A DNA stretch of 23,191 nt from a virus: IMG/VR virus record IMGVR_UViG_3300029922_000308, positions 1-23,191 of that record; one strand, written 5' to 3'. Position numbers and translations under genes: made by a program. Of this stretch, positions 1-7,987 are shown piece after piece. The notes beneath the pieces were generated by a model. The model was not told where the DNA came from and did no database searches. It saw nothing but the letters and a program-made list of their open reading frames with translations. The stretch's first letter is position 1. Each line of letters opens with the position of its first letter.

Positions 1-101
1 AGGTCTACGCCTGGGTGTATGGTTGTAACATACTAATGTATGGCTACAACGTACGTGTTGGTCTATGTTGGGGAGCAGGGTTAGTTACATCTTATGGTTA
101 G
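1..101 (+). CDS. 3' end of a hexapeptide-repeat protein (partial)
   Basis: The reading frame starting at base 3 is open from the window edge to a TAG at 99-101. It begins VYAWVYG, the same repeat core found in the two complete beta-helix genes at 1384 and 3099, and the DNA (GTCTACGCCTGGGTGTATGG) matches their 18-base repeat unit closely. After the first two units the pattern decays (MYGYNV, then VGLCWGAG) and the protein stops without a recognisable C-terminal domain. This is either the end of a third paralogue or a degraded remnant of one. The 5' end lies outside the window, so length and start are unknown. Confidence 0.6.
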   Translation, partial: VYAWVYGCNILMYGYNVRVGLCWGAGLVTSYG

Positions 102-174
102 TGGTATCTACTGACTAACTATACCAACTGACTAAGTGGTCTGATAGGAGGACTTATGAGGGGAGGTATCCATA

Positions 175-245
175 CCTAGTTCTACCTATTTCTCTATTTC
201 TACCCTATCTCTACCTCTATTTCTATCCCCTCTGTATCTATATCC
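175..245. repeat. Pyrimidine-rich tract with about 6-base periodicity
   Basis: The plus strand is almost purely C and T, with single A residues spaced about six bases apart (for example 178, 184, 196, 202, 207, 213, 219, 225, 236). Units resemble TCTACC and TCTATT. It is low-complexity DNA of the kind that arises by slippage; whether it ever coded for protein cannot be seen. Confidence 0.55.
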
Positions 246-306
246 TCTAACAATAGATTCGTACCGTTATATCTCTTCACTATCAATTACTGGGTATCAT
301 CCTATA

Positions 307-335
307 TTGGGTAGTATCATTTATTTCGTTATAAT
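307..335 (+). promoter_or_regulatory. Possible sigma70-type promoter
   Basis: A perfect TATAAT at 330-335 lies 17 bases after TTGGGT (307-312), which keeps only the TTG of the consensus -35. Spacing is ideal but the -35 is weak. A second candidate overlaps downstream: TTGTAA (353-358), 17 bases, TTATAT (376-381). Either would drive transcription toward the gene at 941. The region is AT-rich, so chance matches are likely. Confidence 0.3.
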
Positions 336-553
336 CTAGGTCATTGAAACTATTGTAACTGTGTCCTTCGGACTATTATATCTAACAACTACTATATCAG
401 GTTTAATTTTTCTTTTTGATTAACTGTAACTTAATCGTGCTTAATGATCATAAGAGACACATTGCACTTATGTTCCCTTTTCGTTAGCTGGTCAATGTAG
501 AGCGAAGCGACTAATTATAATAGTGCGAAGCATTAGGTTATGATGATAAGAGC

Positions 554-570
554 AGTTAGATGGTCTAACT
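554..570. other. Perfect 7-bp hairpin
   Basis: AGTTAGA (554-560) and TCTAACT (564-570) form a 7-bp stem around TGG. No T-run follows, so it is not an obvious terminator. It may be an operator half-site pair or RNA leader structure. Confidence 0.4.
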
Positions 571-707
571 AATTGATTGTATCCGATCCCGTTTTGATTA
601 TACAAATATCCAGTTTTTATGTCAAGCACATAATATCGATTAAATGAATTATTTAGCTAACTCAATGAAAGGCTTATCACTTTCCAATAGCTCGAGGTAG
701 TGTTGAA

Positions 708-737
708 TGTAAAGGGTTGTAAAGGGTTGTAAAGGAT
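708..737. repeat. Three tandem 10-bp repeats (iteron-like)
   Basis: TGTAAAGGGT occurs at 708-717 and 718-727, and TGTAAAGGAT (one mismatch) at 728-737. The period of 10 bases places each copy on the same face of the helix. A perfect TATAAT follows at 745-750, but no -35 element with 16-18 base spacing is present. This fits activator or repressor binding sites over a promoter, or origin-type iterons. Function is inferred from layout only. Confidence 0.55.
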
Positions 738-877
738 ATGGCGCTATAATGTACAAGAATAACACACTGTTTAATAGATCTACGACAATTTTGGGTGACA
801 CTCCTAGATCCATTGAAGAACTCACTGGCACGGTGTCTGCATTACTTAGTAATTGTATAAGGCACGAACAACCCTGA

Positions 878-916
878 GGTAGGCTAGGTAACTTTCCCCC
901 GAGTATCTAGCCTACC
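878..916 (+). promoter_or_regulatory. Leader hairpin upstream of the gene at 941
   Basis: GGTAGGCTAG (878-887) and CTAGCCTACC (907-916) are perfectly complementary 10-base arms around a 19-base loop. The structure ends 14 bases before the AGGAGG ribosome binding site (931-936). Without a T-run it is unlikely to be an intrinsic terminator. It could be an RNA processing site, a protein-binding site or a stabilising 5' leader. Confidence 0.5.
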
Positions 917-940
917 AACACTCCATAATAAGGAGGATAT

Positions 941-1375
941 ATGACAAACCAACTACAAGACTTTATTAATAACTCTGAAACAAGCATCATGTTTAACCGT
1001 AACGGTGATACTACAATTACATTCTCCTCAATTGGATATTATCACGCGGAGCTAGCCGAGCTAGAAAGGCGGTTACTAGCTGAAGGATATAAAGACGCTG
1101 TCAGTAAAGGTCATGCGGACGGATTTGACAGAATGTCCGGTCGAACCTTTAGTACCTTTAAAGAGCCAAAACAATCAATTAAAGTAAAGCAGGCATATAT
1201 GAAAAAGGATAATACGACACAGAGAATGGCCGATGTAGTTGCTGCGATCCACTCTATTAAGAGTAGACTTAAGGAGGCTAGTCATGAAGAACAAGAACAG
1301 ATTATTGGCGATCTATTGGCACTTGAGAACTGTTTGGTAACGGAAGTAGAGCTATTCTTAAAAGGGGAGAGGTAG
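941..1375 (+). CDS. Unknown phage protein, 144 aa
   Basis: The ATG is preceded by a perfect AGGAGG at 931-936, so the start is well supported. I do not recognise the family. The N-terminal third (about residues 1-40) is mixed, followed by charged, probably helical segments: residues 33-50 contain AELAELERRLL and residues 90-140 are rich in Glu, Lys and Leu, ending in LFLKGER. There are no cysteines apart from one near residue 130, no signal peptide and no membrane segment, so a soluble cytoplasmic protein is expected. It is the first gene of the plus-strand accessory cluster and is followed after 8 bases by the first complete beta-helix gene. The leader hairpin at 878-916 may affect its expression. 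Confidence 0.75.
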   Translation: MTNQLQDFINNSETSIMFNRNGDTTITFSSIGYYHAELAELERRLLAEGYKDAVSKGHADGFDRMSGRTFSTFKEPKQSIKVKQAYMKKDNTTQRMADVVAAIHSIKSRLKEASHEEQEQIIGDLLALENCLVTEVELFLKGER

Positions 1376-1383
1376 GAAGGAAT

Positions 1384-2103
1384 ATGACTAAGAAGTATAA
1401 ACTACTACTGGATGATATCAAAGACATTGGTAATACTAAATTATATAGAATACAAAGACTATCTGATGGTCAATTAGGTGGTTATATCCAATCAGAGGAT
1501 AATCTTAGTCACCTGGGTAATACCTGGGTCTCTGATAATGCCCAGGTCTCTGGTAATGCCCGGGTCTATGGTGATGCCCAGGTCTGTGGTTATGCCTGGG
1601 TCTATGGTGATGCCAAGGTCTATGGTAACGCCCAGGTCTTTGGTGATGCTCGGGTCTATGGTGATGCCCAGGTCTATGGTAATGTCTGGGTCTATGGTAA
1701 TACCCGGGTCTATGGTAATGCCCAGGTCTCTGGTAATGCCCGGGTCTATGGTGATGCCCAGGTCTGGGGTGGTGCCAATGTCTATGGTGATGCCCGGGTC
1801 TATGATTATGCCTGGGTCTATGATAATGCCCGGGTCTCTGGAAAGGCCCGGGTTATTAGTCCCCAATGTATTATTCATCTACAAATAGGTTCTAATTTTC
1901 ACGTGACTATTCTAAGACGACAAGTTCAAATTGGGTGTAAAGTCTTTACGCGTGACCAAATAAAAGCCATAACAGCTTCTCGAGCGGAGGAGTACGGACT
2001 ACGTAGAAGCGACTATATCCCCTATCGTAAAATGATCTTAGGTGCTATGCGCTTGATTTCTCCTAACGGCGGTGCTTATGCCAAGAAAGAGATAATCAAA
2101 TGA
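1384..2103 (+). CDS. Left-handed beta-helix hexapeptide-repeat protein, 239 aa
   Basis: Residues 1-46 form an N-terminal cap with YKLLLDD, KLYRIQRLSDG and GGYIQSEDN, also present in the protein at 3099. Residues 47-157 hold about 18 hexapeptides of the type A-x-V-Y/S-G-N/D. This fits the left-handed beta-helix pattern, and three units per turn would give about six turns. The C-terminal part (about 158-239) is non-repetitive, with VQIGCK followed by a helical, basic stretch. Proteins of this type are frequent in phages and bacteria (hexapeptide-repeat, YdcK-like), but their role is mostly unknown. No acyltransferase active-site residue is recognisable, so transferase activity should not be assumed. 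GGAAGG at 1375-1380 supports the start. The stop overlaps the next start by 4 bases. Confidence 0.85.
   Translation: MTKKYKLLLDDIKDIGNTKLYRIQRLSDGQLGGYIQSEDNLSHLGNTWVSDNAQVSGNARVYGDAQVCGYAWVYGDAKVYGNAQVFGDARVYGDAQVYGNVWVYGNTRVYGNAQVSGNARVYGDAQVWGGANVYGDARVYDYAWVYDNARVSGKARVISPQCIIHLQIGSNFHVTILRRQVQIGCKVFTRDQIKAITASRAEEYGLRRSDYIPYRKMILGAMRLISPNGGAYAKKEIIK
1522..1854 (+). repeat. 18-bp tandem coding repeats, about 18 copies
   Basis: The beta-helix section is also a DNA repeat with an 18-base period and consensus close to GCCCGGGTCTATGGTGAT. Several units are identical over most of their length, and the same unit recurs in the gene at 3099. Such arrays can change copy number in frame by slippage or recombination. 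Confidence 0.8.
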
Positions 2104-2498
2104 TTATTACATATAATAAACATTCCCGAGATTTAGAGCCCTTTGTTCAAGATATGATTAAGCGGTTCCAATATAGCGAGACTAAGCATATAGTCTCCTT
2201 AGCAATCAAAGGGTATAACAGCAGCACAGGCGCTCAGCATGGAGCGATCACTAAAACAACCTTAAAGGGTCGTAAGGTTAGCTATACGATTACTCTTAAT
2301 CGCAAAGGTAAGCACAAATCTTATGAACCCCTGGAGTGTACCCTAACAACGCTCGCACACGAACTAGCCCACCTTACATACTGGAACCACGGTAGGGCAC
2401 ATTTCCAGCGAATGGCCATATTATTGATGTATGCAGGGTGCTCGATTGAAGAACATCAAATCGATTATACGAAGGAGCCTAAGTTATGTGTAAAATAG
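2100..2498 (+). CDS. SprT-like zinc metalloprotease, 132 aa
   Basis: The sequence LAHELAHLTYWNHGRAHF carries an HExxH zinc site (H87, E88, H91) and further histidines at 97 and 101 in an HG context, as in SprT/WLM-type metalloproteases. The protein is about the size of a minimal SprT domain and lacks the C-terminal zinc ribbon of longer SprT proteins. SprT and Spartan relatives cleave proteins, including DNA-protein crosslinks. Whether this phage protein does so is inference. The start overlaps the stop of the beta-helix gene by 4 bases (ATGA at 2100-2103), which indicates translational coupling. No signal peptide is visible, so it would act in the cytoplasm. Confidence 0.75.
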   Translation: MIITYNKHSRDLEPFVQDMIKRFQYSETKHIVSLAIKGYNSSTGAQHGAITKTTLKGRKVSYTITLNRKGKHKSYEPLECTLTTLAHELAHLTYWNHGRAHFQRMAILLMYAGCSIEEHQIDYTKEPKLCVK

Positions 2499-2698
2499 TA
2501 GTAGAGTTTCTATTCGAAGGTGGTGTAAGCGTCATCAGGGAGTACTTCTATGCTTCGTCGGCTGATCTATTATGCAAACTACGTCACGACTATCGTGGGT
2601 TCCCTACGCAAATTAGAATTGTTTCCAGTTTCTTCTACAAAAGAAGATGCCAGAACGTCTACATGCTTGATTACTACAAAAATCGAAAGGCAGGATAA
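2486..2698 (+). CDS. Unknown small protein, 70 aa
   Basis: AAGGAG at 2472-2477 lies 8 bases before the ATG, and the start overlaps the metalloprotease gene by 13 bases. The protein is rich in aromatic residues (FYASSADLL, FFYKRR, YMLDYYKNRK) and ends very basic. N-terminal residues 1-20 alternate hydrophobic and polar positions (KIVVEFLFEGGVSVIREYFY), which suggests a small beta-sheet fold. No known family is recognised. The next gene starts 1 base after its stop. Confidence 0.65.
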   Translation: MCKIVVEFLFEGGVSVIREYFYASSADLLCKLRHDYRGFPTQIRIVSSFFYKRRCQNVYMLDYYKNRKAG

Positions 2699-2699
2699 T

Positions 2700-2906
2700 A
2701 TGTCAGATACTAAGCCCGTCAGCTTTGTGTGGGCGCAGGCACTGGATGCTTATATGATTAAAGACGTAACGGTTATCGGTCTGTATAACCATCGGACCCA
2801 GCTCGCTGCCGAAACGCCTATTAAAGTGGATGTAGAATCTCATGTAGGCATTATTAATGGTAAACTGGTCCAGCTGAAGAAGAACCAGTACCGTGTTGTA
2901 TGTTAA
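2700..2906 (+). CDS. Unknown small protein, 68 aa
   Basis: I chose the ATG at 2700 rather than the in-frame ATG at 2550. The longer form would overlap almost all of the preceding gene, and 2700 comes one base after that gene's TAA, with AGGA at 2692-2695. The protein begins MSDTKPVSFVWAQALD and is rich in valine with alternating polar residues (DVTVIGLYNHR, IKVDVESHVGIINGKLVQLKK), so a small beta fold is likely. It ends YRVVC. No family is recognised. Its stop is part of a TAATG overlap with a possible start of the next gene. Confidence 0.6.
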   Translation: MSDTKPVSFVWAQALDAYMIKDVTVIGLYNHRTQLAAETPIKVDVESHVGIINGKLVQLKKNQYRVVC

Positions 2907-3094
2907 TGCTCAACGAGAGACAGGCCGCTTCGTGGTTAGGCTTATCTAGATTCTATCTACGAAACATGAGGCATGAAATGCATTCTCACTCAGGCCCTAA
3001 GTTTCACTATCGGCCTTCTCGTGGAGGAAAAACCTGTTGGTATCGGATGGAAGACCTGATAGAATGGAAAAGTACACATTTAAGAAGGAAATAA
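2900..3094 (+). CDS. Helix-turn-helix (excisionase/AlpA-like) DNA-binding protein, 64 aa
   Basis: The N-terminus LNERQAASWLGLSRFYLRNMR fits a winged-helix MerR/excisionase-type helix-turn-helix. It is followed by a basic wing (KFHYRPSRGGKTCWYR) and the acidic-aromatic segment MEDLIEWKST typical of AlpA/HTH_17 proteins. These small proteins bind DNA as transcription regulators or, in temperate phages, help excision. No integrase is visible, so a regulatory role is more likely. Two starts are possible: ATG at 2900, or ATG at 2906 in a TAATG overlap with the preceding stop. The second fits translational coupling, and they differ by only two residues. Confidence 0.7.
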   Translation: MLMLNERQAASWLGLSRFYLRNMRHEMHSHSGPKFHYRPSRGGKTCWYRMEDLIEWKSTHLRRK

Positions 3095-3098
3095 ACAA

Positions 3099-3728
3099 AT
3101 GAAAAAGTATAAACTATTACTGGATGATACCATAGACATTGATGGTATCAAGTTATATAGGGTCCAAAGATTATCTGATGGTCTGATAGGTGGTTATATC
3201 CAATCAGAGGATAATTTCAGTCACGAGGGTTATGCTATGATCTTTGGTAATGCCCGGGTCTATGGTAATGCCGTGGTCTATGGTGATGCCCGGGTCTATG
3301 GTGGTGCCCTGGTCTATGGTGATGCCCGGGTCTATGGTGATGCCCAGGTCTATGGTAATGCCCTGGTCTATGGTGGTGCCTGGGTCTATGGTAATGCTCT
3401 GGTCTATGGTGGTGCCCTGGTCTATGGTGGTGCCCTGGTCTATGGTAATGCCCTGGTCTATGGTAATGCCCTGGTCTATGGTAATGCCCGGGTCTATGGT
3501 AATGCCCGGGTCTATGGTGATGCCCAGGTCTATGGTAATGCCCGGGTCTTTGATACTAAACTTTCGTATGGTATTAAAATAGATAATGATGTCGGGTCTA
3601 AAATTAACCCCAGTCTACAGGGGCCAAGTATGCAATTAGATACTTGTATCCACTCATGGAAATCGTATACTGGGCTAACGGAGACTTACGCTTACTGTAC
3701 TAAGTGCGATAAAAGGGATACAAGATGA
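3099..3728 (+). CDS. Second left-handed beta-helix repeat protein with C-terminal zinc motif, 209 aa
   Basis: The N-terminal 45 residues closely match the cap of the gene at 1384 (YKLLLDD, QRLSDG, GGYIQSEDN). Residues 46-151 hold about 17 hexapeptides, more uniform than in the first copy, mainly A-L/R/Q-V-Y-G-N/D/G. After a short linker the C-terminus has C183-I-H185 and, 15 residues later, C200-x-x-C203, with GLTETY between them. This is a probable small zinc-binding knuckle. It is nearly the same as the C-terminus of the separate 68-residue protein at 7781 and is absent from the first beta-helix protein. AAGGAAA precedes the start. Function is unknown; a trimeric scaffold or binding protein is the usual expectation for this fold. 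Confidence 0.85.
   Translation: MKKYKLLLDDTIDIDGIKLYRVQRLSDGLIGGYIQSEDNFSHEGYAMIFGNARVYGNAVVYGDARVYGGALVYGDARVYGDAQVYGNALVYGGAWVYGNALVYGGALVYGGALVYGNALVYGNALVYGNARVYGNARVYGDAQVYGNARVFDTKLSYGIKIDNDVGSKINPSLQGPSMQLDTCIHSWKSYTGLTETYAYCTKCDKRDTR
3234..3551 (+). repeat. 18-bp tandem coding repeats, about 17 copies
   Basis: Units are close to GCCCTGGTCTATGGTGGT or GCCCGGGTCTATGGTAAT. Some neighbouring copies are identical at DNA level, for example the GCCCTGGTCTATGGTAAT units around 3443-3486. The array is more homogeneous than the one at 1522-1854, which suggests recent expansion or gene conversion. Confidence 0.8.
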
Positions 3729-4429
3729 AAATAAATGATTATCTATTAGCCTGTCGTCCCTATCTAAATAAAGATCTAATGATGGGTGGGCATCCTGTCC
3801 CGGCGGATGCAGGTCAGCAATGTGACAATCACGCCATGTTCACGGCAGAATACCTACGCATTGCTAAGGATATCGACCCCTCGTATAAACCCTCTAATCA
3901 TGTATGGGAGTTTGAACATAATGGCCAGCTCTATCGGTATATTACTAGTGACTCTGCTCTGGATCTATCTCCAGATGATTATCTAGGGTATCTTAACTAT
4001 TGTAACCTTTATGACCAACAATCGGCGCTTCGTCTTCTAGATTTTGGTAGGGCCAATTGGGGTTCCTACACCTCACCATGGAGTACGGTAGGCTTTCTGT
4101 GGCGACAACCGCAGCTATGGTGTGCTTGTCTAGCGGCTGCGGGTAAGCTAAGATTCTACCACCTTCCTCTTGTGATCTACACCGCCCTAGTTATCCTCGT
4201 GGCAGGGCACGGTGCTAGTCCTATAGCTGATCAAGACACACGTCGCCTCAGTTGGCACTTGATTCAGGTTATGAAAGGCGTATCCTGGTTATGTAGGCAG
4301 GCGGCGAAGGTCTGGTGGAGGAGATTAAGGAGTCAGTATGGCGAGGATGGGATGCGGATTGTATTTGCTAGGTATTTCGATGCTAGTCACCCTTTCGCAC
4401 GTTTTGCCGTTAATGAGTTGGAGAGGTAA
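3725..4429 (+). CDS. Unknown phage protein with one hydrophobic segment, 234 aa
   Basis: The start overlaps the preceding stop by 4 bases (ATGA). I do not recognise the family. The N-terminal half (1-130) has many conserved-looking small motifs, including GGHPVPADAGQQCDNHAMFT (21-40) and NHVWEFEHNGQLYRY (58-72). Residues 144-161 (FYHLPLVIYTALVILVAG) are hydrophobic enough to be a membrane segment or buried helix. The C-terminus is basic and aromatic, with two tryptophans before RRLRSQYG. It is directly followed by the glycosyltransferase gene with no gap, so a joint role in glycan synthesis or surface modification is possible, but this rests on position only. Confidence 0.7.
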   Translation: MKINDYLLACRPYLNKDLMMGGHPVPADAGQQCDNHAMFTAEYLRIAKDIDPSYKPSNHVWEFEHNGQLYRYITSDSALDLSPDDYLGYLNYCNLYDQQSALRLLDFGRANWGSYTSPWSTVGFLWRQPQLWCACLAAAGKLRFYHLPLVIYTALVILVAGHGASPIADQDTRRLSWHLIQVMKGVSWLCRQAAKVWWRRLRSQYGEDGMRIVFARYFDASHPFARFAVNELER

Positions 4430-5434
4430 ATGAAAATCTTATTCGTGGATGATGTTTGTCCCCGACCTTATGAAGTAACCTCCCTGGATACTATGCCAAT
4501 GGGCGGCACAGAAGCAACGTGTGCCAGGTTGATTAGGGAACTATCGAAACAAGACACTATCTTCATGTCGCAACAGAAGAGGACCGAGGAGCATGTAGAT
4601 AGTTTAGGAATTTCCTATCTTAAGGCAGACACATTAGTTGACAGTCCGGATGCAGTTATCACACTGCGAGATGCCAGGACGTTTCGAATTGTGAATGAGA
4701 GATACCCAAAGGCGAAACATTATTTGTGGATGCATGACGTTGTCTCGGGACCGTACTTAGAGCATCTACAACAGTGTATTGTGGACTTTCCGACTACGAT
4801 GCTTGCAGGTTCCTTATGGCACAAGATGCAGATTGCGGGTCAGTTGCCAGATCAATTTAATAAAGGGCTACTCAAGATTGAGCAAGTGACAAACTTCGTC
4901 GAGCACTACTGTGATAGGACCTCTGACCGAAGCTTCGATCCCTACAAGCTATCATTCTTCTCTTCTCCTCACAAAGGACTTGAGCGAGTACTGACACTCT
5001 TCACAGAGTTACACAAAAGAGAGTCGAAATACCAACTATATATTAGTAATCCAGGGTACTTTGCAAATCGAGAAGACCTCCCAGAGGGAGTAGTTCAACT
5101 CGGCGTATTATCTCATAAAGACGCGATCGAGAGCATACGAACCTCTTTGTGTACTTTCTATCCTAACAATACATTCCCAGAGACGTTTGGTCTCGTGTAT
5201 GCCGAGAGTAACGCTGTAGGCACTCCTGTTCTTTGCCACGACATTGGAGCCGCCAAAGAGATCATTACGACACCACAACAAATGGTTAGTGAAGATCCTG
5301 AAGTAGTTTACAAGACAGTCATGGATTGGACAGCAGGACTTAGGCCGGTGGTGAAAGTGAAAGAGCAGTACACGATCGGAGAAGCTATCCGTGATTGGCG
5401 TAAAATGTTAAATCCAATGAGGTTACTAAAATGA
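4430..5434 (+). CDS. GT-B fold glycosyltransferase (GT4-like), 334 aa
   Basis: The N-terminus KILFVDDVCPR followed by MGGTE (24-28) matches the acceptor-side start of GT-B enzymes. In the C-terminal half, FFSSPHKGLERVL (176-188) corresponds to the nucleotide-sugar binding region. PETFGLVYAESNAVGTPVL carries the EX7E motif (E251 and E259) characteristic of retaining GT4-type enzymes. The length is normal for a compact member. It would transfer a sugar from a nucleotide sugar to an unknown acceptor. In phages such enzymes modify DNA bases, virion proteins or host glycans, and nothing here decides between these. It starts right after the TAA of the previous gene and overlaps the next small gene by 4 bases. 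Confidence 0.85.
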   Translation: MKILFVDDVCPRPYEVTSLDTMPMGGTEATCARLIRELSKQDTIFMSQQKRTEEHVDSLGISYLKADTLVDSPDAVITLRDARTFRIVNERYPKAKHYLWMHDVVSGPYLEHLQQCIVDFPTTMLAGSLWHKMQIAGQLPDQFNKGLLKIEQVTNFVEHYCDRTSDRSFDPYKLSFFSSPHKGLERVLTLFTELHKRESKYQLYISNPGYFANREDLPEGVVQLGVLSHKDAIESIRTSLCTFYPNNTFPETFGLVYAESNAVGTPVLCHDIGAAKEIITTPQQMVSEDPEVVYKTVMDWTAGLRPVVKVKEQYTIGEAIRDWRKMLNPMRLLK

Positions 5435-6582: not shown

Positions 6583-6611
6583 ATCTTACTAAAAATGGTG
6601 GAATATATCAA
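6583..6611 (-). promoter_or_regulatory. Sigma70-type promoter for the minus-strand island
   Basis: On the minus strand TTGATA (6611-6606) is followed after exactly 17 bases by TAAGAT (6588-6583). It lies 26 bases upstream of the ATG at 6557 and reads into the terminase-like, 60-aa and endolysin genes. The gap is only 70 bases and is shared with the divergent gene at 6628. Confidence 0.5.
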
Positions 6612-6627
6612 TATAGGAAATAAACAA

Positions 6628-7032
6628 ATGAAGAAAGCAGGCGGAACTAAGCACGATTCAGGTAAAGCGGGAATGGATCTTATACCCTTTGATGGTATTG
6701 TAGAGATTGCGAAAGTTCTTGACTTTGGCGCTAAAAAGTATACACCGGGGAATTGGGCCAACGGGATTCAGTTCTCTAGGCTTTTGGCAGCGGCAGAACG
6801 CCACATTGGGGAATACAAGGAAGGCCGGGATATCGATCCCGAGAGCGGATTAAATCACATCGCACATGCGGCGACCAACCTAGTCTTTCTTCTATGGATG
6901 CAAAAGCACCGACCCGAACTAGATAATCGATGGATTAAAGAGTCAAAAGAAGTCCCATCTAAGGCACAGGAAGAGGCATTTTGTGATGAGATGAAAAGTA
7001 AGGTTTCCCAAATCCTCAAGGGGATCCCGTGA
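6628..7032 (+). CDS. MazZ/DUF5664-like dNTP pyrophosphohydrolase, 134 aa
   Basis: The segment DLIPFDGIVEIAKVLDFGAK, then KYTPGNWANGIQFSRLLAAA, ERHIGEYKEGRDIDPESGLN and HIAHAATNLVFLLW, closely fits the dATP/dGTP diphosphohydrolase N-terminal family (formerly DUF5664). That family is related to all-alpha MazG-type enzymes. Key visible residues are E and H in ERHIGE, D and E in DIDPESG, and the two histidines of HIAHA. Family members hydrolyse dNTPs to dNMPs. The MazZ enzymes of 2-aminoadenine (Z-DNA) phages are related, but neither PurZ nor DatZ is in this window. The ATG at 6628 has AGGA at 6615-6618, and an upstream extension would run through the divergent gene. The stop overlaps the next GTG start. 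Confidence 0.7.
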   Translation: MKKAGGTKHDSGKAGMDLIPFDGIVEIAKVLDFGAKKYTPGNWANGIQFSRLLAAAERHIGEYKEGRDIDPESGLNHIAHAATNLVFLLWMQKHRPELDNRWIKESKEVPSKAQEEAFCDEMKSKVSQILKGIP

Positions 7033-7781
7033 CAGCTAAGAACAGTTACAGCTTCTCCGCACTCTCCGCTGCTTATAATTGCCAGCAGCTGTACAAGTTT
7101 AGGTATATTGATAAGATTATCCCCAAACAGGACCAGACGGGGGACTTAGCCTTCGGTAGTGCAATCCACTTTGCTCTAGAACAGTATTATACTGAGAAGA
7201 GTGATCCTGTAGAGAGTTTTAAATTATACTGGGAAGCAATGCTATCTAAAGACCTTCAGTACGGGAGATACAATCACGTGGCTCTGGCTGCTATGGGAGA
7301 AACCCTGCTAGTCAGATATGTAAGGCTACACGCTGATAAGCTCGGTGCTAGGTATGTAGAAAAGAGGCTCTTCACTACGATTGAAGGACATAAGTTAGAG
7401 GGTACTCCTGACGTGATAGGGGACTTTGAAGGCGAACTATCCGTGATCGACTTTAAGACCTCCGGCTATCGCTATCCTAAAGACAAGATCCTAATTAGTG
7501 AGCAAATGACCCTTTACGCCGCGATGGCCACTAAAGAATACAAGCTACCTATCACTCAGGTGGTGTATATCGTGTTCATCAAAGGCACAGTCCCATCTAT
7601 TCAGATTCTAAAGAACCCCCTCACCCAAGACACAGTTGCCGAAGTAGTGACTAACGTAGTACAACAGATTAATGATCTCGAGTCTAAGATTAAAGATAAT
7701 AGGCCTTATACAAGAAATACGAATAACTGTATTAAAGGGCCGATCATGTGCCCGTACTTTGAAACCTGTTGGAGGAAATAA
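7029..7781 (+). CDS. RecB/Cas4-like PD-(D/E)XK exonuclease with putative Fe-S cysteines, 250 aa
   Basis: RecB-family motifs appear in order: GSAIHFALE (H47), EGTPDVIG (D128), VIDFKTS (D141 and K143) and SEQMTLYAA (Q159, Y163). One cysteine lies near the N-terminus (C18) and three near the C-terminus (C234, C241, C247), the arrangement that holds an Fe-S cluster in Cas4 and AddB nucleases. Phage proteins of this kind process DNA ends for recombination. The next-but-one gene encodes a Rad52-type annealing protein, so the two probably act as an exonuclease-annealase pair. No CRISPR array or other Cas gene is present. The GTG start overlaps the preceding TGA. Confidence 0.85.
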   Translation: MTAKNSYSFSALSAAYNCQQLYKFRYIDKIIPKQDQTGDLAFGSAIHFALEQYYTEKSDPVESFKLYWEAMLSKDLQYGRYNHVALAAMGETLLVRYVRLHADKLGARYVEKRLFTTIEGHKLEGTPDVIGDFEGELSVIDFKTSGYRYPKDKILISEQMTLYAAMATKEYKLPITQVVYIVFIKGTVPSIQILKNPLTQDTVAEVVTNVVQQINDLESKIKDNRPYTRNTNNCIKGPIMCPYFETCWRK

Positions 7782-7987
7782 TGAATAAATCGGTAATGGA
7801 CTTAAAGTATCTACTACAGTCCGATTACATCATTCTCGATGGTTTTCGAACAACTAAGGATATAATCCAAGAACATTATGCAAATATTAAAGCTGGAATG
7901 GTCTGCATTCATGAGTTTAAAGACTATGTAGGACTAACTGAAACCTATAAATACTGTGTTAAATGTGATGAAAAGGAGAAACAATGA
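7781..7987 (+). CDS. Small protein with C-terminal CxH-CxxC zinc motif, 68 aa
   Basis: The ATG at 7781 is in a TAATG overlap with the nuclease stop and has GGAGGA at 7771-7776; an in-frame ATG at 7769 lies inside that gene and lacks such a site. Residues 1-40 are probably helical (VMDLKYLLQSDYIILDGF, then TTKDIIQEHY). Residues 42-63 carry C42-I-H44, a GLTETY segment and C59-x-x-C62-D. This C-terminal motif is almost identical to the end of the beta-helix protein at 3099 and probably binds one zinc ion. It lies between the nuclease and annealase genes, so it may help either. Function is unknown. Confidence 0.75.
   Translation: MNKSVMDLKYLLQSDYIILDGFRTTKDIIQEHYANIKAGMVCIHEFKDYVGLTETYKYCVKCDEKEKQ

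Follow-up and report, generated by a model that had tools for sequence, protein, structure and literature searches.

Here we report that two complete genes in a viral DNA stretch of 23,191 nucleotides (IMG/VR record IMGVR_UViG_3300029922_000308; the whole stretch is hereafter the window) encode paralogous proteins, P0001 and P0002, whose sequences define an N-terminal cap, a beta-solenoid rod of hexapeptide repeats, and a C-terminal tail. By sequence comparison, both belong to a known YdcK-type beta-solenoid family that is widespread in phages. The rod surface of this family changes fast around a conserved core, which suggests a diversifying binding surface. Both proteins probably serve a tailed phage as accessory proteins in the cytoplasm.

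P0001 (positions 1384-2103; 239 aa) and P0002 (3099-3728; 209 aa) are complete open reading frames on the plus strand, each with a good ribosome-binding site. The P0001 cap (residues 1-48; 1384-1527) is kept in relatives and aligns with the YdcK cap, and the following rod (1528-1851) consists of 18 hexapeptide units, each encoded in frame by 18 bp. Its tail (1852-2103, including the stop codon) is a domain with an invariant Gly-Cys, the usual one in the family. In P0002, a cap similar to that of P0001 (residues 1-47; 3099-3239) is followed by a rod of 17 units, likewise 18 bp each and in frame (3240-3545), and the tail (3645-3728, including the stop codon) ends in a Cys/His motif, CIHSWKSYTGLTETYAYCTKCDKRDTR, that is possibly metal-binding. 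At the DNA level, the two arrays are 18-bp tandem repeats at 1516-1853 (18.8 copies, 80% matches) and 3241-3549 (17.2 copies, 89% matches). No further arrays were found in the whole record, and scans of the window with Rfam and for tRNA were both empty.

The initial annotation had described three loci sharing the hexapeptide, two of them with a common cap and different C-terminal domains. For the two complete genes this description holds: the caps share 70% identity across the first 77 residues, and the Gly-Cys domain of P0001 is unrelated to the Cys/His end of P0002. The third locus, placed at 1-101, stands only as a plausible remnant. It is a stop-terminated fragment of 33 codons on the plus strand (3-104), cut by the contig end, with one or two recognizable units, one of them clear, and no visible cap. 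Its DNA resembles about one repeat unit (shuffle p about 0.003), whereas as protein it matches the repeat weakly (p 0.009-0.02). Plausibly, a third solenoid gene has left its 3' end here.

The assignment to the family comes from several profile comparisons. The Pfam YdcK solenoid model PF18836 matched P0001 (E = 4e-25, 85.9 bits) and P0002 (E = 7e-29, 97.7 bits) well above its curated cut-off of 30. A PHROG 7964/5070 profile covered the cap and rod of both proteins (E = 9e-63 and 4e-54, respectively) and matched all 36 of 36 relatives, and in a profile built from these relatives the cap and rod aligned to YdcK 2f9c (22-138) with E = 1e-26. Like P0001 and P0002, YdcK of Salmonella and E. coli (2f9c, 2pig) combines a cap with a hexapeptide solenoid. 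However, the window proteins have near-perfect DNA repeats and other tails, and P0001 scores 54.7 bits with the YdcK equivalog model NF040481, far under the 350-bit cut-off, and so is not YdcK proper. The members of PHROG 7964/5070, such as orf229 of Streptococcus phage Sfi19 and proteins of Vibrio breoganii phages, share the cap, the rod and the Gly-Cys tail of P0001, whereas the window adds the Cys/His tail of P0002 and adjacent paralogues with different tails. The family occurs in at least 63 INPHARED records, in phages and prophages. Searches with full-length P0001 against viral contigs and with the P0002 tail against INPHARED gave no matches, and full-text searches, with subscription literature excluded, returned no functional paper on YdcK or phage hexapeptide repeats.

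Many family members carry misleading names, for example putative acyltransferase or transferase. Along with the hexapeptide repeats themselves, such annotations are what speaks for a left-handed beta-helix acyltransferase, a reading that is already contradicted and retains almost no probability. We rejected it because neither rod contains a histidine and the Hexapep model PF00132 reaches only 13.7 bits where its cut-off asks for 27; moreover, NCBIfam acyltransferase matches among relatives are weak and scattered. Profile searches with P0001 and P0002 turned up no known enzyme family with a conserved active site, a match that the initial annotation had named as refuting. Defense and anti-defense models also gave no match, which weighs against a counter-defense function.

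Structure prediction, which the initial annotation had proposed as a check on the beta-helix, returned a beta-solenoid for the arrays (pLDDT 80-90, single-sequence prediction), and alignment-based prediction gave mostly 84-94 for cap and tail, including 90-94 for residues 1-40 of the P0001 cap. Among fold matches, the single-sequence model came closest to the right-handed bactofilin 2n3d (Z 9.6, rmsd 2.2, 101 residues), so that indications of handedness diverge between YdcK homology and this model. Bactofilins (PF04519) are likewise triangular solenoids of short strands, but they form filaments, and in the Pfam comparison P0001 scores 24.4 bits against a cut-off of 27.9 and P0002 has no match, while some relatives pass. 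Foldseek searches of the PDB with both models produced no match with E below 0.001. By sequence, the best solved structure for the Gly-Cys tail had only E 0.4, and none was found for the P0002 tail.

The evidence for a binding surface comes from the variation within the rods. By the hexapeptide fold, V1 and A5 of each unit would point inward and positions 2, 4, and 6 outward. Over 218 loci, pN/pS was computed per unit position by comparing the units of one array, and it amounted to 1.98, 1.31, and 1.19 at outward positions 6, 4, and 2 and to 0.31 and 0.26 at core positions V1 and A5, values that differ from a formal dN/dS test and could be distorted by unit exchange and homogenization. At position 6, protein-level change exceeded silent change in 179 loci, as opposed to 39. 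Between the two window genes, pS and pN are 0.325 and 0.125 in the caps and 0.063 and 0.202 in the rods. Counting against a binding surface, a search for face periodicity among the outward residues gave no excess at lag 3.

Some relatives have the same cap and tail with a non-repetitive rod, and array length differs between near-identical phages. Both observations fit a mutational by-product, in which slippage and recombination add, remove, and swap units, the fold tolerates nearly any outward residue, the diversity is non-adaptive, and the tail does a simple job. We regard this account as rather unlikely, since relaxed constraint alone would bring pN close to pS, not to about twice pS, and since the window rods show fewer silent but more amino-acid differences than the caps. 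Diversification by a retroelement came into question since A positions of the unit (TAT, AAT, AAG) are among the variable bases; it was rejected because 38 of 39 relatives' records lack a reverse transcriptase, and none was noticed in the fragmentary record of the window. A variable tandem repeat is also present in NeuO of prophage CUS-3, a hexapeptide O-acetyltransferase, where it can break the reading frame (PMC3046976). The NeuO repeat has a unit of seven nucleotides (heptanucleotide) and sits outside the solenoid, at the 5' end, whereas in P0001 and P0002 the variable repeat is the solenoid itself, with a frame-preserving 18-bp unit. The frame is intact in 63 of 67 arrays and in both window genes; the other four arrays are broken, possibly through phase variation driven by the repeat and possibly by assembly error.

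Rod length varies widely, from 3 to 57 units among the matches listed, and whole coils are not required. A fixed ruler or full-coil constraint was rejected, as unit number modulo 3 showed no significant departure from uniformity (p = 0.10), and no fixed geometry is kept. This freedom of length weighs against a spacer or scaffold, in which the rod would separate cap and tail or polymerize, gathering tail activities (nucleotide diphosphohydrolase, Cys/His, Gly-Cys) near replication and recombination proteins. The composition of the tails and the gene context speak for such a role, as does the bactofilin-like fold match. A dATP/dGTP diphosphohydrolase family that four Bartonella loci carry as a fusion with the rod is encoded free-standing in the window (6601-7032, plus strand), and the P0002-type Cys/His motif recurs at the end of a 72-aa ORF (7769-7987, plus strand) between the exonuclease and annealing-protein genes; among the arrays examined, P0002 alone has it. 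A passive spacer, however, leaves the excess of pN over pS at outward positions unexplained, and we consider the scaffold doubtful.

The genes around the solenoid genes of relatives belong to a recombination/replication region rather than to the virion genes; ERF, RecT, and YqaJ are enriched near the array compared with genes at least 7 away (best 25 families listed), which is suggestive only. In the window, a metallopeptidase-like gene (WLM/SprT-like, HELAH; 2100-2498, plus strand; below Pfam cut-offs) overlaps the P0001 stop codon, a search with the protein encoded at 3725-4429 found nothing, and a group 1 glycosyltransferase gene lies at 4430-5434 (plus strand). In one relative (G040) a solenoid gene precedes the glycosyltransferase, and in a syntenic relative (G041) it is a pentapeptide gene that does so.

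The same cap and rod carry at least five tail types, which supports the proposal of a modular family under diversification, its cap constant and its tails interchangeable, as does the excess of amino-acid change at outward positions. Several copies occur in some phages: six in L034, and six or more on the contig of L060/L098. One tail domain is common to pentapeptide rods and one hexapeptide rod (fusion L184). Pentapeptide-repeat proteins (PF00805; phage members, Qnr/MfpA) also have a solenoid rod, and one locus carries either type of protein, as G041 illustrates, but their repeat has five residues, their cap is different, and their tails are not homologous to the Gly-Cys tail: homology of C-G-C-F-x-G-T with C-A-C-L-x-G-T was rejected at an hhalign probability of 2%. 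The PF00805 model matched neither P0001 nor P0002. DNA mimicry and gyrase binding are known capacities of pentapeptide solenoids (PMC10886550), and together with the common tail domain and the G041 arrangement this raises the prospect of a Qnr/MfpA-like solenoid binding host topoisomerase or another DNA-binding enzyme. Such a role is improbable here: the fold matches to HetL, AlbG, and QnrB (Z 8.5-9.3) are little above the range common without kinship, and the rods carry little net charge (0 and +2), which led us to reject a charge-based DNA mimic.

We tentatively favor, at somewhat below an even chance, a modular accessory protein that binds a variable target in the host through its rod. The cap would start the solenoid, the tail would be its exchangeable functional or anchoring part, and the rod would offer a length-tolerant binding surface, remodeled by copy-number change, unit exchange, and homogenization, of which length change is seen in relatives. 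It would bind a host macromolecule that differs between hosts, for example a defense or nucleic-acid-handling protein, and binding would make the protein an inhibitor or decoy in early infection. The conserved core, fast surface, variable length, and exchangeable tails make this binding function directly testable.

A broader and distinctly less probable reading is that phages keep a set of repeat-protein binders whose hexapeptide and pentapeptide rods are exchangeable recognition surfaces and whose tails are exchangeable effectors. Unit exchange and selection, not a retroelement, would have diversified the rods. If so, paralogue clusters such as those of L034 and the L060/L098 contig would be directed at several host targets; and if swapping between pentapeptide and hexapeptide rods is general, two large unexplained families of phage proteins would share one role.

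The left end of the window carries, on the + strand, two complete genes that are each centred on a tandem array of an 18-bp unit and that belong to an already known phage family; one of the two has an unusual tail. P0001 (1384-2103, +) contains 18 in-frame hexapeptides encoded by an array at 1516-1853 (+; 18.8 copies, 80% matches), and P0002 (3099-3728, +) contains 17, encoded at 3241-3549 (+; 17.2 copies, 89% matches). Both have ribosome-binding sites and rods of the V-Y-G-N/D-A-X type; the proteins are 70% identical across the N-terminal 77 residues, and their tails are unrelated to each other. The initial annotation had counted three beta-helix hexapeptide loci, of which the two complete genes with in-frame arrays stand; the fragment at 1-101, which translates as VYAWVYGCNILMYGYNVRVGLCWGAGLVTSYG*, has one clear hexapeptide unit only, followed by decay of the repeat. 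Shuffle tests of its resemblance to the repeat unit gave p about 0.003 for DNA and 0.009-0.02 for protein. The fragment is possibly the end of another solenoid gene, the third. No signal peptide or membrane segment was apparent on reading the P0001 and P0002 sequences, so both proteins are probably cytoplasmic. A metallopeptidase-like ORF (2100-2498, +; HELAH, WLM/SprT-like, below the cut-off) overlaps the P0001 stop codon, and thus the two may be translationally coupled. Over the P0001 array, a second + frame (1478-1888) and an antisense frame (1492-1878, -) are also open for nearly the length of the array, probably as a by-product of the unit length. The AT-rich segment at 105-940, which has no long + strand ORFs and bears short tandem repeats at 173-225 and 708-735, is possibly a regulatory region or origin.

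Both proteins were assigned to the YdcK beta-solenoid family of Pfam, well above the cut-off, and fall in PHROGs families 7964 and 5070, which were matched by 36 of 36 aligned full-length proteins. A profile of 36 aligned proteins matched one solved structure, YdcK (2f9c/2pig; E = 1e-26), in an alignment that extends through the cap; YdcK itself was ruled out (54.7 bits vs the 350-bit equivalog cut-off). The solenoid genes of Streptococcus phages Javan174, Javan318, Javan68, Javan249, and Javan420 carry the annotation glycerol kinase, which looks like an error passed on from record to record. In line with the proposed beta-helix, a beta-solenoid is predicted: AlphaFold2 without an alignment folded the rod, with a central pLDDT of 80-90, and not the ends, and with 35 relatives it gave the cap at pLDDT 90-94 and the tail domain mostly at 84-90, leaving the rod unfolded because the repeats misalign. 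Combined, the two runs predict a cap, a solenoid, and then a tail in which strands lead into helices. The best fold match of the single-sequence model is a right-handed bactofilin (Z 9.6), whereas YdcK, the homologue by profile, is taken as left-handed, its lineage being classified with LpxA-like proteins. An acyltransferase function is nearly eliminated: both rods lack histidine, and the score for the acyltransferase hexapeptide model fell below the cut-off.

Silent (pS) and amino-acid-changing (pN) differences between units were counted for each hexad codon. At position 6, the two window arrays showed pN of 0.45 and 0.44 vs pS of 0.08 and 0.02. Pooled over 218 loci, with one array per locus, pN/pS, which compares units of one array and is not a formal dN/dS test, was 0.31 at V1, 1.19 at position 2, 0.88 at G3, 1.31 at position 4, 0.26 at A5, and 1.98 at position 6. 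At position 6, pN exceeded pS in 179 of the 218 loci, with the reverse in 39, and positions 2, 4, and 6 kept their direction when units that fit the search pattern were omitted. Between P0001 and P0002, the cap has the profile of a normal conserved domain, with pS 0.325 and pN 0.125. The rods, with pS 0.063 and pN 0.202, are closer to each other than the caps are at silent sites, and yet their outward-facing residues differ. This pattern would be expected if selection favoured change at exposed positions; slippage with conversion may be an alternative source of it. It is unlikely that a diversity-generating retroelement is responsible, as reverse transcriptase is absent from 38 of 39 relatives' records. 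Array length also changes: arrays range from 264 to 465 bp among five Vibrio breoganii phages in which the sequence around the array is about 98-99.5% identical, with the frame broken internally in two of the five. Loci L039 and L101, with flanks 93-94% identical, contain 12 and 36 units. No constraint on unit number modulo 3 was detected (p = 0.10), and hence there appears to be no need for whole coils or a fixed cap-tail angle. Over the whole set, cap and tail are kept in one frame by 63 of 67 arrays, an indication of selection for the complete protein. In five Vibrio phage records (L004-L008: MG592419, MG592418, MG592511, MG592510, and MG592579), annotated CRISPR spacers sit within the coding repeat of the solenoid gene and look like false calls.

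The P0001 tail domain occurs in Streptococcus, Vibrio, Acidovorax, Curvibacter, Lactobacillus, and many other phages or prophages; its Gly184-Cys185 is invariant in 36 sequences, the rest being highly variable. Relatives with non-repetitive rods (Motura, Pd_22F, and phiKSUM) bear it too, so that it is possibly the ancestral end. In P0002 this domain is missing, and the protein ends in CIHSWKSYTGLTETYAYCTKCDKRDTR, which recurs on a 72-residue protein (7769-7987) encoded between the exonuclease and annealing-protein genes; silent sites between the two copies are saturated, which argues against a recent duplication. The window was the only place where the P0002 tail turned up among 257 reading frames that bear arrays. 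The proposed search for the cap with differing C-terminal domains gave such cases in other loci, where the same cap and rod carry a dATP/dGTP diphosphohydrolase tail (PF18909; four Bartonella loci, L148, L183, L234, and L251), a coiled-coil-like stretch (L042), or short ends without a domain. Phages may hold several copies: six in L034, three each in L055, L061, and L104, and at least six on the L060/L098 contig.

The rod may be exchangeable as well. In one relative (G040; DNA polymerase 44% identical), a P0001-tailed solenoid gene lies immediately upstream of a homologue of the window's glycosyltransferase gene; in another (G041; polymerase 43% identical), a pentapeptide-repeat protein and a short ORF precede the same glycosyltransferase, and no YdcK repeat was found in the record. 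This pentapeptide protein shares 50% identity in its tail, over 52 residues, with the tail of a Burkholderia hexapeptide solenoid (L184), and the same tail is borne on pentapeptide rods in Bordetella phage IFTN6, L284, and L285. A tail borne by hexapeptide as well as pentapeptide rods (a single fusion, L184) and a locus that can hold one rod or the other (a single case, G041) suggest that the two solenoids may substitute for each other. The G041 pentapeptide gene (L280:3-521, L281:3549-3896), upstream of the glycosyltransferase homologue, spans contig ends, a sign that the genome may be circular or permuted. On phage contig L024, a hexapeptide solenoid gene and a pentapeptide-repeat gene (3-560 and 1669-2271) lie about 1.1 kb apart. 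The initial view of a modular family under diversification thus gains support at the family level: the core is kept, the surface changes, length is free, and tails, perhaps also rods, can be exchanged.

The window, an IMG/VR virus record of 23,191 bases, encodes a tailed-phage gene set, including DNA polymerase, DnaB-like helicase, primase, exonuclease, annealing protein, endolysin, and terminase small subunit. Among the matches listed for 126 neighbouring proteins scanned were ERF (4), RecT (2), YqaJ exonuclease (2), Sak, SSB, Gp157, NinB, and DnaB, and an equal-sized control set further from the array had fewer such recombination and replication families among the matches listed. Rival proposals for these proteins are a scaffold, a mutational by-product, and a gyrase-inhibitor-like role. 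In the best-supported mechanism, the rod would bind a host factor that varies from host to host and would carry the tail as an exchangeable part, the protein presumably acting early in infection.
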